Positions 1,761 through 5,858 of a stretch of 14,094 nt of DNA are shown here, in pieces (position 1 is the first letter of the stretch; the number at the start of each line of letters is the position of its first letter). The stretch comes from a bacterium (GTDB lineage: Bacteria; UBP18; UBA7526). The notes beneath the pieces were generated by a model. The model saw only the letters and a list, made by a program, of their open reading frames with translations. It was not told the DNA's origin and ran no database searches. The stretch covers positions 1 to 14,094 of the forward strand of contig JAUXAI010000032.1 of NCBI GenBank assembly GCA_030619985.1, read 5' to 3'. The translations under genes were made by a program, and so were the position numbers.

Positions 1761-2918
1761 TTAGAGTTCTACTTTCTTAAGCTCTTTCAAGACAGCTTTG
1801 CGAATTTCTTGGACTTTAGGAAGCTTGGTGACCAACCTTCCCTTCCTCATTAATGGTCTGATCAGTCCTTCAAACCTTCCTCCACAGGAGCATTTGATGG
1901 GTCTTTTATTAGCTAAGGTGACCTCCCTCCTCCCACATTTATTACACTGCCAGACCTGTTTCCTACCAGATAATTTCCCCCTTTTAGCAAAGGGCTTTCT
2001 TTCGATCTCAACAATATCTAAAGAAAAGTCAATTACTCTTGCATTGCTTATCGCTGTCCCCACCCCATAGGCATCGGCACAGGGATTTAGTTTCAGAATC
2101 TCTTCCTCATCTATTCCCCCGCTTAAGAATAACTTTACACTCTTAAATTCCCTCTGATCTAACTCCCACCTCACCTCTTCCAGTAATCTTAAGAAGTCCC
2201 CCCTCCTCGACGCCGGGGTATCGAGCCTTACAGCAAAAAGATTTTTTCCTAGGGCTTTAGCCACTTTTAAGGCCTCGAACTTCTCATCCCCTAAGGTATC
2301 AATTAATGATACCCTCTTTATCTCTTTCGGTATTACTTTATCAAAGGCCTTGGTTGCCTTTATTGTATCCCCCATAATCAGGATCAGGGCATGGGGCATG
2401 GTCCCCACTGCTTTCTCACCAATGAGTTCGGCACTTTTGATTACTGCCACGCCATCACAACCTCCCAAGAAGGCTGCCCTCTCAATCATGGGAGAGATGG
2501 CCGGATGCATCCTTCTCGCCCCAAAACTTACCACCGATCTTTCACCTGCTACTTTCTTACACCTTGCCGCTTTGGTCGCTACCCCACTTGCCTGGCAGAT
2601 CAATCCTAATAAGGGGGTCTCATAGACCGCAAAACTGGAATACTCCCCACTAATGGTTAGGACCGGCTCCTCAGGATAGAAGAAGGTTCCTTCTGACATA
2701 GAATCAATATTGACTGGTTTATTCTTGAATAATTCCACTACCTCTTCTATTCCAGCCAATATTACCCAGGGATAATTAGAAGGGAACTTATGGGCTACAA
2801 CCTCCATAGCCACTCTCTTTTTAATCTTTTTCTTCTTTAGGATCTCCTCTGTCCTCTTGAAATAGACATCAGTAACCTTCCCTTCTTTTATCTCCTTCTC
2901 ACTTGCGATATGGAACAT
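1761..2918 (-). CDS. pncB: Nicotinate phosphoribosyltransferase with C-terminal zinc ribbon (archaeal-like)
   Basis: 385 residues; joins nicotinate and PRPP to give nicotinate mononucleotide, the entry step of NAD salvage. Seen: the N-terminal KVTDVYFKRTEEIL (14-27), SFGARRMHP (131-139), the conserved GTMPHAL (172-178), SLIDTLGDEKFEAL (204-217), VRLDTPASRRGD (230-241) and FLSGGIDEEEI (264-274) of the barrel. At the C terminus, C325-x2-C328 and C343-x-C345 form a zinc-ribbon-like module. From memory, the Thermoplasma acidophilum enzyme has a comparable four-cysteine motif, and the length fits that type rather than the longer E. coli PncB. The ribosome site AAAGGAG precedes the ATG. Two TGTCA palindromes lie just upstream, and pncA lies two genes further up, with a HEPN-MNT pair between them. 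A quinolinate phosphoribosyltransferase is a related alternative, but the motifs and zinc module favour nicotinate. Confidence 0.9.
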   Translation of the reverse strand: MFHIASEKEIKEGKVTDVYFKRTEEILKKKKIKKRVAMEVVAHKFPSNYPWVILAGIEEVVELFKNKPVNIDSMSEGTFFYPEEPVLTISGEYSSFAVYETPLLGLICQASGVATKAARCKKVAGERSVVSFGARRMHPAISPMIERAAFLGGCDGVAVIKSAELIGEKAVGTMPHALILIMGDTIKATKAFDKVIPKEIKRVSLIDTLGDEKFEALKVAKALGKNLFAVRLDTPASRRGDFLRLLEEVRWELDQREFKSVKLFLSGGIDEEEILKLNPCADAYGVGTAISNARVIDFSLDIVEIERKPFAKRGKLSGRKQVWQCNKCGRREVTLANKRPIKCSCGGRFEGLIRPLMRKGRLVTKLPKVQEIRKAVLKELKKVEL

Positions 2919-2942: not shown

Positions 2943-2998
2943 TGTCACTAAGATGACAAATCCATAGAAAAATGGGTAATTTTGTCACCACAATGACA
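2943..2998. promoter_or_regulatory. Pair of TGTCA palindromes (operators A1 and A2) before pncB
   Basis: Two 16-base inverted repeats, TGTCACTAAGATGACA at 2943-2958 and TGTCACCACAATGACA at 2983-2998, have left ends exactly 40 bases apart, about four helical turns. The shared form is TGTCAY-N4-RTGACA. They fill most of the 81-base gap between the MNT stop codon and the pncB start. The same arrangement recurs before the HEPN gene. I infer a dimeric repressor bound cooperatively. The identity of the regulator is unknown; niacin- or NAD-responsive families such as NiaR or NrtR are possible in principle, but I cannot match their motifs from memory. Confidence 0.7.
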
Positions 2999-2999
2999 A

Positions 3000-3614
3000 T
3001 TAATGGCCCCAAAGTCTCTTAACAGAGTAGTTCTGTAGTCCAAACTTGGCAAAAATATTTCTTATTTCTTCGAGTTTCTCTCCTCTTATGAGGATTACCC
3101 CTGGTGCTAACTTCTCCTCTCTTTTATCTATAAGGCTTCCTGCTCTCCTCTTTTTATAGCTGTAGAGTGCCCTCAGCAATCCTCTCCTATCCTTCTCCTT
3201 CAACCCTTTGAGAGAATAAGAGATTAAGAGTAATGGCTCCAAAGAAGGGAGGGGCTCTTTGACCAGGAGGTCCCTTGGTCTCCCCCAAATCAGGATTCCT
3301 TCCCTTGCTATATTCCATAGAAAATCAGGCTCTGTTCCCTCCATCCTCCTCTGATTGATCATGACAAAGGAGAAGGAGTAAGGTAAATCGTATTTGCTCA
3401 AGATATCTGAGGCAATTCTATGGGCTACTCTCGATTCCTCACCGACCTCCGGGTTATGGTCGCAGTCGAATACTAAGAGAAGGTCGATATCGCTCTTTCT
3501 GGAGACTTCTCCAGTGACTGCTGAGCCAAATAGAATAGTGCCTACTAAGTTGGGGATTTCTTCTGCCCGAGCAACAAAATCAATAATTACCTCTTTGAAC
3601 TCCTCACTTATCAT
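3000..3614 (-). CDS. Nucleotidyltransferase (MNT, DNA polymerase beta fold), partner of HEPN gene
   Basis: 204 residues from the ATG at 3614; a GTG four codons earlier (3626) is the alternative. I prefer the ATG because it overlaps the stop codon of the HEPN gene as ATGA, a usual sign of translational coupling. The N-terminal half is a minimal nucleotidyltransferase: LFGSAVTGEVSRKSDIDLLL (residues 28-47) holds the G30-S31 loop and the metal-binding pair D42/D44. The C-terminal half, about 100 residues, is helical and basic and is not part of the minimal MNT domain; I do not recognise a further domain. In known HEPN/MNT pairs such as HepT-MntA, the MNT protein is the antitoxin and modifies the HEPN RNase with AMP. 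Whether that holds for this longer, archaeal-like version is inference. A stand-alone nucleotide-modifying role is an alternative. Confidence 0.85.
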   Translation of the reverse strand: MISEEFKEVIIDFVARAEEIPNLVGTILFGSAVTGEVSRKSDIDLLLVFDCDHNPEVGEESRVAHRIASDILSKYDLPYSFSFVMINQRRMEGTEPDFLWNIAREGILIWGRPRDLLVKEPLPSLEPLLLISYSLKGLKEKDRRGLLRALYSYKKRRAGSLIDKREEKLAPGVILIRGEKLEEIRNIFAKFGLQNYSVKRLWGH

Positions 3615-3958
3615 CCTTCTGTCCACTTTCTCACTTTCTCAATAATCTGGAGGCACCTCTTGACCACATCTCCGTTCTCTTTTGAACCATACCATCTACC
3701 TGCCCTAAGAGTATTCAGAGTGGCAAAGGATTCAGCGATGGAGGATTCTCCTAACTTCCTTAATTCTCTGGGCATTCCAACATGGGTATCCAAGTGTTTA
3801 CCATGCTTTCTCTCCATCCCAGAAGCAATGAGATGGAATAGAATACCATAGGTTAATTCAACAATGGCAACTACATTCTTTCCCTTTGGATCGGGTAGAA
3901 GTTTTTCTAAACTCTCTTCGATCTCTGTGGCCTTCTTTTTATGTCCTTCAGCATTCAT
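3611..3958 (-). CDS. HEPN-domain protein, probable partner (toxin-like) of the MNT gene
   Basis: 115 residues from the ATG at 3958. A TTG start at 3979 would add seven residues but has no ribosome site; GGATGGACGAAAG before the ATG is a modest one. The protein is all-helical in appearance. Its middle helix reads ELTYGILFHLIASGMERKHGKHLDTH, shown here as residues 34-59, with R50-x4-H55 matching the R-x4-6-H pattern of HEPN ribonucleases. A C-terminal LRAGRWYG (84-91) resembles the YG-containing helix common in MNT-linked HEPN proteins. It lacks the R-x4-H-x-Y tyrosine of HepT, so AMPylation by the MntA mechanism, if any, would use another residue. It overlaps the downstream nucleotidyltransferase by ATGA and has its own promoter and operator pair. 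Function as an RNase toxin is family inference; the R-x4-H sits in an unusual central position, so a non-catalytic substrate-binding HEPN is also possible. Confidence 0.75.
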   Translation of the reverse strand: MNAEGHKKKATEIEESLEKLLPDPKGKNVVAIVELTYGILFHLIASGMERKHGKHLDTHVGMPRELRKLGESSIAESFATLNTLRAGRWYGSKENGDVVKRCLQIIEKVRKWTEG

Positions 3959-3962
3959 CTTT

Positions 3963-4018
3963 CGTCCATCCAGTGACAAAAATGGCTAAATTCAGCCTAT
4001 TTTGTCATTATAGTGACA
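3963..4018. promoter_or_regulatory. Operator pair B1 (perfect) and B2 (degenerate) before the HEPN gene
   Basis: TGTCATTATAGTGACA at 4003-4018 is a clean member of the TGTCAY-N4-RTGACA family seen before pncB. Forty bases away, at 3963-3978, CGTCCATCCAGTGACA keeps the GTGACA half but has changes in the other, so the same 40-base spacing is conserved with one weak site. The clean site begins at the predicted transcription start and the weak one ends just before the ribosome site. The 24-base spacer differs from that of the pncB pair apart from AT-richness, so the repeats themselves appear selected. Confidence 0.65.
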
Positions 4019-4023
4019 ATACT

Positions 4024-4052
4024 ATTCTATCTCTTTCTTCCTTCAAAGTCAA
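4024..4052 (-). promoter_or_regulatory. Candidate promoter for HEPN-MNT
   Basis: On the minus strand TTGACT (4052-4047) and TAGAAT (4029-4024) are 17 bases apart, each 5/6 to the sigma70 consensus. They lie in the gap after pncA. Transcription would start near 4018-4017, the first base of operator B1, an ideal place for repression. Confidence 0.55.
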
Positions 4053-4059
4053 GTCTTTT

Positions 4060-4578
4060 TCAAATCATCTTTGCTTTGAGGATATTCTCCATCTGATTTA
4101 GGGCAAATCTGCCATCCTCTTCGTTTAGGGCAGCGACACTATCCTTAGGAATGGTAACTTGATAGCCCCTCATTACTGCATCCGCTGTGGTATAGAGAAC
4201 ACAGATATTGGTCACCAATCCAGTTATGATTAATTCCTTTACCCCTAATTTCTTTAAGGTACTATCCAGACCAGTTTCAAAGAATCCGGAATAGCGCTTC
4301 TTTCTCATTATATAATCTTTCTCTTCTGGTTTCAACTCTTTAATTATCTCTGCTCCTTTGGTTCCAGAGATAGCATGAGGAGGCCAGACCTTGAATTCCT
4401 CATCATCCTTATCGTGACTATCGCAGATATAAATAATTGGAATCCCTTCTCTTCTTGCTTCCTCTATCCTTCTCTTCAAGGCAGGAAGAATTTTCCTTCC
4501 TTCATGAACCTCTAACGGTGCCCCTTCAAGAACGAAATCATTGAGCATATCAATAACTAACAAAGCCTTTTTAGGCAT
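4060..4578 (-). CDS. pncA: Nicotinamidase-like cysteine hydrolase (isochorismatase family)
   Basis: 172 residues; the likely reaction is nicotinamide to nicotinate plus ammonia, feeding pncB downstream. The catalytic triad can be placed: D10 in VIDMLNDF, K93 in RKKRYSGF and C126 in GLVTNICV. D53 and H55 (CDSHD) and H68 (WPPHAISGTKGAE) match the metal-binding segment of nicotinamidases, and the WPPHxxxGTxGAE stretch is more typical of nicotinamidase than of isochorismatase or maleamate amidohydrolase. Position close to a nicotinate phosphoribosyltransferase supports the assignment. The ribosome site is a run of Gs (TTAGGGGGT) before the ATG. A 75-base repeat sits immediately upstream, so any native promoter there may have been displaced; read-through from mnmA and the PP-loop gene is likely. 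Confidence 0.88.
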   Translation of the reverse strand: MPKKALLVIDMLNDFVLEGAPLEVHEGRKILPALKRRIEEARREGIPIIYICDSHDKDDEEFKVWPPHAISGTKGAEIIKELKPEEKDYIMRKKRYSGFFETGLDSTLKKLGVKELIITGLVTNICVLYTTADAVMRGYQVTIPKDSVAALNEEDGRFALNQMENILKAKMI

Positions 4579-4594
4579 GGTATACCCCCTAATT

Positions 4595-4669
4595 GTTCGT
4601 TTACGGTTGACCCGTCCCGATATCCATCGGGACTGTTTACCGTTAACCGTACACCGTAAACTGTTAACC
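4595..4669. repeat. 75-base hairpin-bearing repeat, intact copy
   Basis: Fills nearly the whole gap between the PP-loop gene and pncA. It is built from GTTTACGGTT-type units in both orientations (for example TTTACGGTTGACC at the left and ACCGTACACCGTAAACTG at the right) around a perfect hairpin, GTCCCGAT-ATCC-ATCGGGAC at 4614-4633. A second copy with an insertion lies at 5674-5858. No transposase is present. Confidence 0.85.
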
Positions 4670-4673
4670 TCTT

Positions 4674-5654
4674 TTAGATTCGTTTGACTCCCAACTCAGT
4701 AGCATCGACTGGAGTGACGATTATAAATTCAACCTCTCCCTCTGGTAATCTCTTATAATTTACTTTTACCTTAGGGAATTCCTTTCCATCGCTATAGCGT
4801 GTACAGAGAGAAGCAGCCTCTTCTAAAGTCTTTTCATTCAACGTTCCCCGAACAATGGCTAAAGGCCCTTTATGTCCTATCACATTAAAGGAGGTATCCC
4901 CTTCCTTACTGAGAGACCTTAGTCTCTTATTCTCCTCCTTATTCCTTCCAATTACAATCTTTAATCCCGTTGAAGACCTGAAGTGCCTTCCCAGTTTGAG
5001 AAGTAAAATATTATCTAAGCTATATTCATTATGCTCTAAGAGGTCTTTTAGGCGCCTGGAAAAGATAGCGTCTGTTAAAAGGCAACCACCTGCTGGAGTA
5101 CTATACTTTCTTAAATTATATCTCCTAGCTAATCCCAGTTGGCCCTTTCTGCTCTTTCCAGAAAGGGCCAATAATTTCTCTCTATTAATCGATCCTCTTT
5201 TTTCTGGATCTGTAATTGGTAGGAGTTTTGCAGAAAGGGGTCTTAAGAGTTTTCCCGGGATATCTGCTCTCTTTGCTATGGCTTCCAGGATTTGCTTATT
5301 CTGGGATCTCGGCCTCTGTCCCACCACCTCTCCTGTAATGATGAAAGAGGCCTTTACTTTTTCCATTAACTCCTTTGCCTTCTTGGCCATCAGAATGTGA
5401 CAGTCGATACAGGGGTTCATATTCTTCCCATAGCCATATCTGGGATTCTTAACGATCTCTAATATCTCGCTTGATACATCTCTGATGTAGAGTTTGATTC
5501 CCAGTTCCTCTGCTGCCTCTTTAGCATTTTCTGCACCAAAAAAGAGAGAAGTAAAGCTTACTCCCTCAACCTCAATCTCCTGCTCCTGAATTAGTTTAAC
5601 CGCCAAAGAACTATCCAGGCCACCAGATAGCAAAGCCAGAGCCTTCACTGCCAT
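4674..5654 (-). CDS. PP-loop ATPase, tRNA thiolation-like, with NFACT-R-like C terminus
   Basis: 326 residues from the ATG at 5654. An in-frame start at 5702 would add 16 residues read entirely from the repeat; AAGGAT eight bases before 5654 decides for the shorter form. The N-terminal PP-loop ALLSGGLDSSLAVK (7-20) binds ATP for adenylation of a substrate, as in MnmA and ThiI. NPCIDCH (80-86, C82/C85) and TPAGGCLLTD (186-195, C191) supply cysteines placed like those of sulfur-carrying tRNA thiolases. The C-terminal stretch IVIGRNKEENKRL (233-245) followed by GHKGPLAIVRG (260-270) resembles the DUF814/NFACT-R RNA-binding module. It is often annotated as ThiI- or TrmU-like in thermophiles and anaerobes. 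The direct neighbour is a true mnmA, so this protein probably thiolates another tRNA position or a different substrate. The exact product is unknown. Confidence 0.75.
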   Translation of the reverse strand: MAVKALALLSGGLDSSLAVKLIQEQEIEVEGVSFTSLFFGAENAKEAAEELGIKLYIRDVSSEILEIVKNPRYGYGKNMNPCIDCHILMAKKAKELMEKVKASFIITGEVVGQRPRSQNKQILEAIAKRADIPGKLLRPLSAKLLPITDPEKRGSINREKLLALSGKSRKGQLGLARRYNLRKYSTPAGGCLLTDAIFSRRLKDLLEHNEYSLDNILLLKLGRHFRSSTGLKIVIGRNKEENKRLRSLSKEGDTSFNVIGHKGPLAIVRGTLNEKTLEEAASLCTRYSDGKEFPKVKVNYKRLPEGEVEFIIVTPVDATELGVKRI

Positions 5655-5673
5655 ACTAAAATCCTTATTAGAA

Positions 5674-5858
5674 GTTCGTTTACGGTTGACCCGTCCCGAC
5701 ATTCGTCGGGACTGTTTACCCCATTAGAAATCCTTTTCATAGGATTTTACTCTTCAGGCGTTAGTATCTGTTTATTTCAAAAAATATATCCTTATGAGTA
5801 TATCTGTTGATTTTTCTAACGGGGTTTACCGTTAACCGTACACCGTAAACTGTTAACC
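5674..5858. repeat. Second copy of the 75-base repeat, interrupted by an insertion
   Basis: The left half (5674-5720) and right half (5831-5858) match the intact copy at 4595-4669. Its hairpin is GTCCCGAC-ATTC-GTCGGGAC, with a paired change (T-A to C-G) against the intact copy. Removing the insertion and one duplicated GTTTACC restores exactly 75 bases. Together the elements occupy almost the entire gap between mnmA and the PP-loop gene. Confidence 0.85.
5721..5823. mobile_element. 103-base non-autonomous inserted element (MITE-like)
   Basis: Inserted in the 75-base repeat and flanked by GTTTACC direct repeats at 5714-5720 and 5824-5830, a seven-base target duplication. The ends form imperfect inverted repeats: CCATTAGAAA on the left and, reversed, CCCGTTAGAAA on the right. 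Internal AAATCCTTTTCATAGGATTT (5728-5747) can fold as a hairpin. It has no coding capacity, so a transposase elsewhere in the genome would be needed. Confidence 0.7.

Follow-up and report, generated by a model that had tools for sequence, protein, structure and literature searches.

Why do pairs of closely spaced palindromes stand both before pncB, a gene of nicotinate salvage, and before a HEPN gene in the same stretch of DNA from a UBP18 bacterium? A first-pass annotation of the locus had proposed that one regulator, bound as two cooperating dimers, controls nicotinate salvage and a HEPN-MNT module together. We examined the window (the whole stretch of DNA analysed, a 14-kb contig of 14,094 nucleotides from the 1.25-Mb draft genome G000) along with related loci from bacteria and archaea. 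The comparison makes it likely that both pairs are operators through which a horizontally mobile HEPN-MNT module, class II-like and resembling a toxin-antitoxin system, represses itself; the module lies between a pncA-like gene and pncB.

Paired palindromes around a HEPN-MNT module

On the minus strand, the window reads in the order isochorismatase-family hydrolase, promoter, pair A, HEPN, MNT, pair B, pncB, thi4 and a cysE-like gene, and the MNT reading frame overlaps that of HEPN. The features concerned are as follows.

4060-4578, minus strand: isochorismatase-family hydrolase, nicotinamidase-like (Pfam PF00857); upstream resident gene
4024-4052, minus strand: sigma-70-like promoter before HEPN, TTGACT-N17-TAGAAT
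4003-4018, minus strand: putative operator pair A, first site, TGTCACTATAATGACA on the coding strand (motif scan)
3963-3978, minus strand: putative operator pair A, second site, degenerate, TGTCACTGGATGGACG; 40 bases from the first
3611-3958, minus strand: HEPN-fold protein, 115 aa (AlphaFold model, fold matches, motif scan)
3000-3626, minus strand: long MNT nucleotidyltransferase, 208 aa (Pfam Polbeta/NTP_transf_2; GSX10DXD; extra C-terminal domain)
2983-2998, minus strand: putative operator pair B, first site, TGTCATTGTGGTGACA; adjoins the MNT stop codon
2943-2958, minus strand: putative operator pair B, second site, TGTCATCTTAGTGACA; 40 bases from the first
1761-2918, minus strand: pncB, nicotinate phosphoribosyltransferase (NCBIfam NF006415, 519 bits); downstream resident gene, outside the module

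The arrangement first described for this locus was re-found in the window. The form TGTCAY-N4-RTGACA is matched exactly by the palindromes at 2943, 2983 and 4003 and, with three mismatches, by a degenerate one at 3963 (CGTCCATCCAGTGACA). Together they make up two pairs, 2943/2983 and 3963/4003, with left ends 40 bases apart in each. Even with one mismatch allowed, TGTCA-N6-TGACA is matched only three times in the window, as the first-pass annotation had stated in finding no other full site there; 0.24 matches would be expected, and none of 200 shuffles reaches three. Exact copies of TGTCA-N6-TGACA in the entire 1.25-Mb draft genome likewise number three, all of them in the window.

The first site of pair A starts at about the predicted transcription start of the promoter at 4052-4024, as had been noted. 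That this promoter is a good one is less secure: TTGACT-N17-TAGAAT is the only sigma-70-like match between 2850 and 4150, but shuffles average 2.0 such matches, and it is weak evidence by itself.

The HEPN protein has no Pfam match, while its AlphaFold model (pLDDT 92) has matches that include the HEPN structures 2hsb, 1wol and 7ae6, the first HEPN structure among them being 2hsb (Foldseek E 0.015, TM about 0.7). It lacks the RX4HXY motif and carries WYG at residues 89-91; among the 14 HEPN sequences scanned, RX4HXY is absent from all and WYG or WFAYG present in all. The GSX10DXD motif occurs in 12 of the 14 MNT sequences scanned, including that of the window, with GG replacing GS in L079 and L080. 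A structure search placed the MNT antitoxins 8xeo and 8xeh as the nearest folds of the MNT protein, which scores 27 bits against the NCBIfam MntA antitoxin model, below its cut-off of 60. About 80 extra residues at its C-terminus are predicted to adopt a beta-alpha-beta-type fold that resembles ferredoxin-like folds at a Z of about 7, a level common by chance and uninformative on function. A DNA-binding domain was recognised in neither HEPN nor MNT, and VIA-align found no match to one in the MNT C-terminus, a result that does not exclude such a domain.

The missing RX4HXY motif and the low MntA score argue for class II rather than for the type VII HepT/MntA systems. As in described class II HEPN/MNT pairs (PMC7641770), a HEPN fold without RX4H retains its tyrosine and is accompanied by GSX10DXD in MNT, whereas the MNT proteins of that class are under 150 aa (PMC7641770) and the one here has 208. 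The module is best read as class II-like but with a long MNT.

Two other features of the window were observed. The gene at 4674-5702, adjoining mnmA, encodes a fusion of a ThiI/MnmA-like PP-loop protein with an NFACT-R RNA-binding domain. Either side of this gene lies an intergenic dispersed repeat (4595-4669, 5674-5720 and 5824-5858) with a 47-nt unit 94% identical and a 35-nt unit 100% identical; repeat-like sequence is also found behind the same gene in the draft genomes G002, of the same genus, and G003, of another genus. Its appearance suggests a REP- or MITE-like element of UBP18.

Palindrome pairs in related modules

A scan of GTDB with an MNT alignment yielded 21 loci, most of them two-gene HEPN-MNT modules, from WOR-3, Aminicenantes, Desantisbacteria, Desulfobacteraceae, Omnitrophica, Aerophobetes, Atribacteria and several archaeal groups, with most of the genomes being metagenome bins. 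Counting the window and 17 loci, and setting apart the decayed copy in G003, 18 modules have readable upstream DNA. In 16 of these, a palindrome pair lies directly upstream of the first gene of the module (HEPN, except in L079, where MNT alone was found), amid unrelated neighbour genes; L066 and L067 have no upstream pair. Site sequence differs by protein subfamily, being TGTCA-N6-TGACA in subfamily a, TTCGTTA-N3-TAACGAA in subfamily b and TGTAA-N6-TTACA in the Hodarchaeal module.

The 40-base geometry is conserved among these relatives as a spacing of 39 or 40. It is 40 in the window, L063, L064, L065 and L075, as in the decayed G003 copy, and 39 in L069-L074, L076-L079 and L081; the former group comprises subfamily a and one b module, the latter the other b modules and one archaeal module. 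Sites are 16-18 bp long and spacers 21-24 bp. The spacers are mostly 9-64% identical between lineages (77% in the close pair L079/L081), so that spacing is conserved without sequence. Paired sites of this kind have the look of operators that accommodate two bound units, and to that extent the earlier proposal gains support.

Pair scores were matched in 0 of 100 shuffles for 15 of the 16 modules and in 1 of 100 for L073, in a test that is somewhat favourable because the scoring motifs were taken from the same sequences; motif-based scoring was used, a generic motif-free palindrome scorer being too noisy. A 29-base alternative ties in loose score in L064, where the exact palindromes stand 40 apart. 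Of the 124 upstream regions taken as controls, a single unrelated one reaches such a score, with a spacing of 25; two further matches are, in our reading, module pairs viewed in reverse orientation. Near relatives among the loci (L069/L072/L073/L078, L074/L077 and L064/L065) reduce the 16 modules to about eleven lineages.

Further searches added little to this set: 297 genomes of one phylum returned only the two subfamily-a modules already known, and a protein scan found no relative in viral contigs and one weak match in plasmids. The HEPN-MNT modules of L074 (Aenigmatarchaeota, archaea) and L077 (Aerophobetes, bacteria) are very similar, either because a module recently crossed from one domain to the other or because of a binning error.

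Could the palindromes act in RNA, as stem-loops of the transcript involved in translational control or recognised by HEPN as substrates? Each can form a stem of 5-7 bp, and a Shine-Dalgarno-like GGAG falls in the second-site loop in L063-L065. We nonetheless consider this very unlikely, as a spacing that stays constant while the spacers themselves are unrelated is better explained by helical phasing on DNA, and as L079 and L081, by our reading, have a consensus-like promoter within the spacer and second site, which would leave the first site untranscribed. A terminator-like hairpin of pair A is at chance level and not retained in G003, and an attenuator at this position was rejected for those reasons. 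Across modules, as we read them, the promoter seems to shift with respect to the pair while the pair geometry is constant, which favours recognition of DNA over RNA.

Pair B and the nicotinate-salvage genes

A pair directly behind MNT is also found in L066 (Desantisbacteria, spacing 40) and L067 (Methanophagales, spacing 41), in neither case with pncB downstream. The site in place of the first site of pair B is TTGCCATTGTGGTTGCAA in L066 and ATGTCACTATGGTGTCAA in L067, and the cores of the pairs behind MNT are similar (CATTGTGGT, CATTGTGGT and CACTATGGT); 0 of 400 Markov resamples reached the score of the downstream pair at either locus. In L067 (3989-4441), the MNT gene has an internal deletion that removed part of it and no HEPN stands in front, while the pair behind is kept, implying that the pair outlives the module. 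Judged by these sequence comparisons, the pair before pncB is a feature of the module and not of pncB.

The sister genomes bear on the same point. In G002, pncB comes immediately after the pncA-like gene, with neither module nor sites. In G003, the module is pseudogenised by stops, deletions and a run of N (L037 876-1500); pair A is kept with the spacing of the window (first site TACCACTATAATGACA, second site TGTCACTTGATGGACA), as is the promoter (TTGAAT-N17-TAGAAT), whereas pair B has been lost to deletion; pncB remains intact. An intact pncB despite the lost pair in G003, together with a site-free pncB in G002, suggests that nicotinate salvage can do without such operators. With so few genomes, the module may have been gained in the family and then lost in G002, or gained more than once. 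G002 also carries, besides a full pncB 95% identical to that of the window, a second, partial pncB (91%) at a contig end, and the bin may contain mixed strains.

It is against this background that a single NAD-responsive host regulator, binding both pairs and co-regulating nicotinate salvage with HEPN-MNT, has to be weighed. The idea draws on the pair directly before pncB and on the pncA-like gene directly upstream of the module (an isochorismatase-family hydrolase that scores 79 bits against the pncA model NF008623, below its cut-off of 174). In other phyla, however, the pairs accompany HEPN-MNT without NAD genes nearby, only L068 among L063-L081 having pncA, pncB, thi4 and cysE, and the counterparts of the pncB-side pair behind MNT occur in two phyla without pncB. 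Neither the NiaR 3H domain nor the NrtR winged-helix domain gave a match in G000, G002 or G003 (UBP18 drafts 82-93% complete) in searches that detected the controls. NiaR sites are TGT-N4-ACA or ACA-N5-TGT (PMC7713382), whereas the window sites are TGT-N10-ACA. No sites were found before nadA. Taken with the sister genomes, this evidence leaves the proposed tie between NAD status and HEPN-MNT with a slim chance of being right. The neighbouring pncB is most likely there by chance of insertion, although it could fall under module control as a side effect of position.

That the pairs are transposition or recombination ends serving the mobility of the module is just as improbable: they flank HEPN-MNT in the window and G002 has the empty arrangement, but most modules have an upstream pair only, the alignment reveals no target-site duplication and no recombinase gene accompanies the module.

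Probable autorepression by a module-encoded protein

On the MNT tree, in which bacteria and archaea are intermixed, operator type needs four changes, the minimum possible. Two modules coexist in the Desantisbacteria genome G101, L066 (a-like) and L075 (b), and their sites differ in type accordingly. With up to one mismatch allowed, all b sites of G101 and G105 are at the module, and the a sites in G000 are likewise confined to the module there. This tracking of the tree, the two modules with two site types in one genome and the restriction of the sites to the module argue that the protein binding the palindromes is encoded by the module.

The competing possibility is a separate host-encoded repressor that differs by lineage. 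It would accommodate the lack of a recognised DNA-binding domain in HEPN or MNT, and it finds a parallel in phage: 120 viral contigs kept from a pattern scan (L084-L203) have TGTCA-N6-TGACA pairs whose spacing peaks at 41, and none of these contigs contains HEPN or MNT, so ordinary repressors may share the geometry. These viral pairs are probably operators of an unrelated phage repressor, and repressors in general probably make use of sites paired at about four helical turns; the argument rests on the constant association of the pairs with HEPN-MNT. A host repressor would have to follow the MNT tree across bacteria and archaea and to supply two operator types within one genome, and no third gene is conserved beside the module. 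We give it little credence.

In the autorepression that we favour, the module would have inserted into a nicotinate-salvage gene cluster, and the MNT protein or a HEPN-MNT complex would most likely bind each pair as two units, presumably cooperating and placed on one face of the DNA about four helical turns (40 bp) apart, thereby repressing the module's own promoter. Support comes by analogy from the Shewanella MNT antitoxin SO_3165, which has no predicted DNA-binding domain yet binds its own promoter, one with two palindromes, and represses it (PMC4621449). The palindrome sequence would have diverged alongside the protein subfamily while the 39/40-bp geometry was retained. Pair B may aid repression by looping between pairs A and B, or may instead block readthrough into the next gene, here pncB.

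Known systems resemble the module in part. The type VII HepT/MntA system of Shewanella oneidensis (SO_3166/SO_3165) is likewise an operon of HEPN and MNT with GSX10DXD in MNT (PMC4621449, PMC7641770), but here HEPN comes first and lacks RX4HXY, MNT is about 200 aa long with an extra C-terminal domain, and the palindromes, described as dissimilar in Shewanella, are alike and at fixed spacing. AbiE, a type IV toxin-antitoxin system, also combines a nucleotidyltransferase module with two inverted repeats, bound by the autorepressor AbiEi, cooperatively in Streptococcus (PMC7319586). Its repeats, 23 bp each and separated by 3 bp (PMC7319586), differ from the shorter sites and longer spacers here, and a DNA-binding domain is recognised in AbiEi. 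Metabolic operons have already been described as places of HEPN-MNT insertion: at the Thermus lysine operon, the module lies in a biosynthetic cluster of one relative and is absent from another (PMC2701414); here the cluster is one of nicotinate salvage, the phylum is UBP18 and operators stand at both ends. We found no description of a 39/40-bp operator pair for HEPN/MNT, class II included, in the open-access literature.

A more far-reaching version is conceivable, though we hold it to be doubtful: that these modules form a distinct HEPN-MNT family across bacteria and archaea with a portable double operator, fixed at 39/40 bp and co-evolving in sequence with the MNT antitoxin, that MNT binds it through a new ferredoxin-like C-terminal domain, and that pair B places pncB under module control.

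The locus cautions that regulatory links to metabolic neighbours should not be inferred from a single genome. A portable operator of fixed geometry, specific to its subfamily, offers a direct route to finding such modules and their DNA-binding protein, and the module provides a test of DNA recognition by a nucleotidyltransferase without a known DNA-binding domain.
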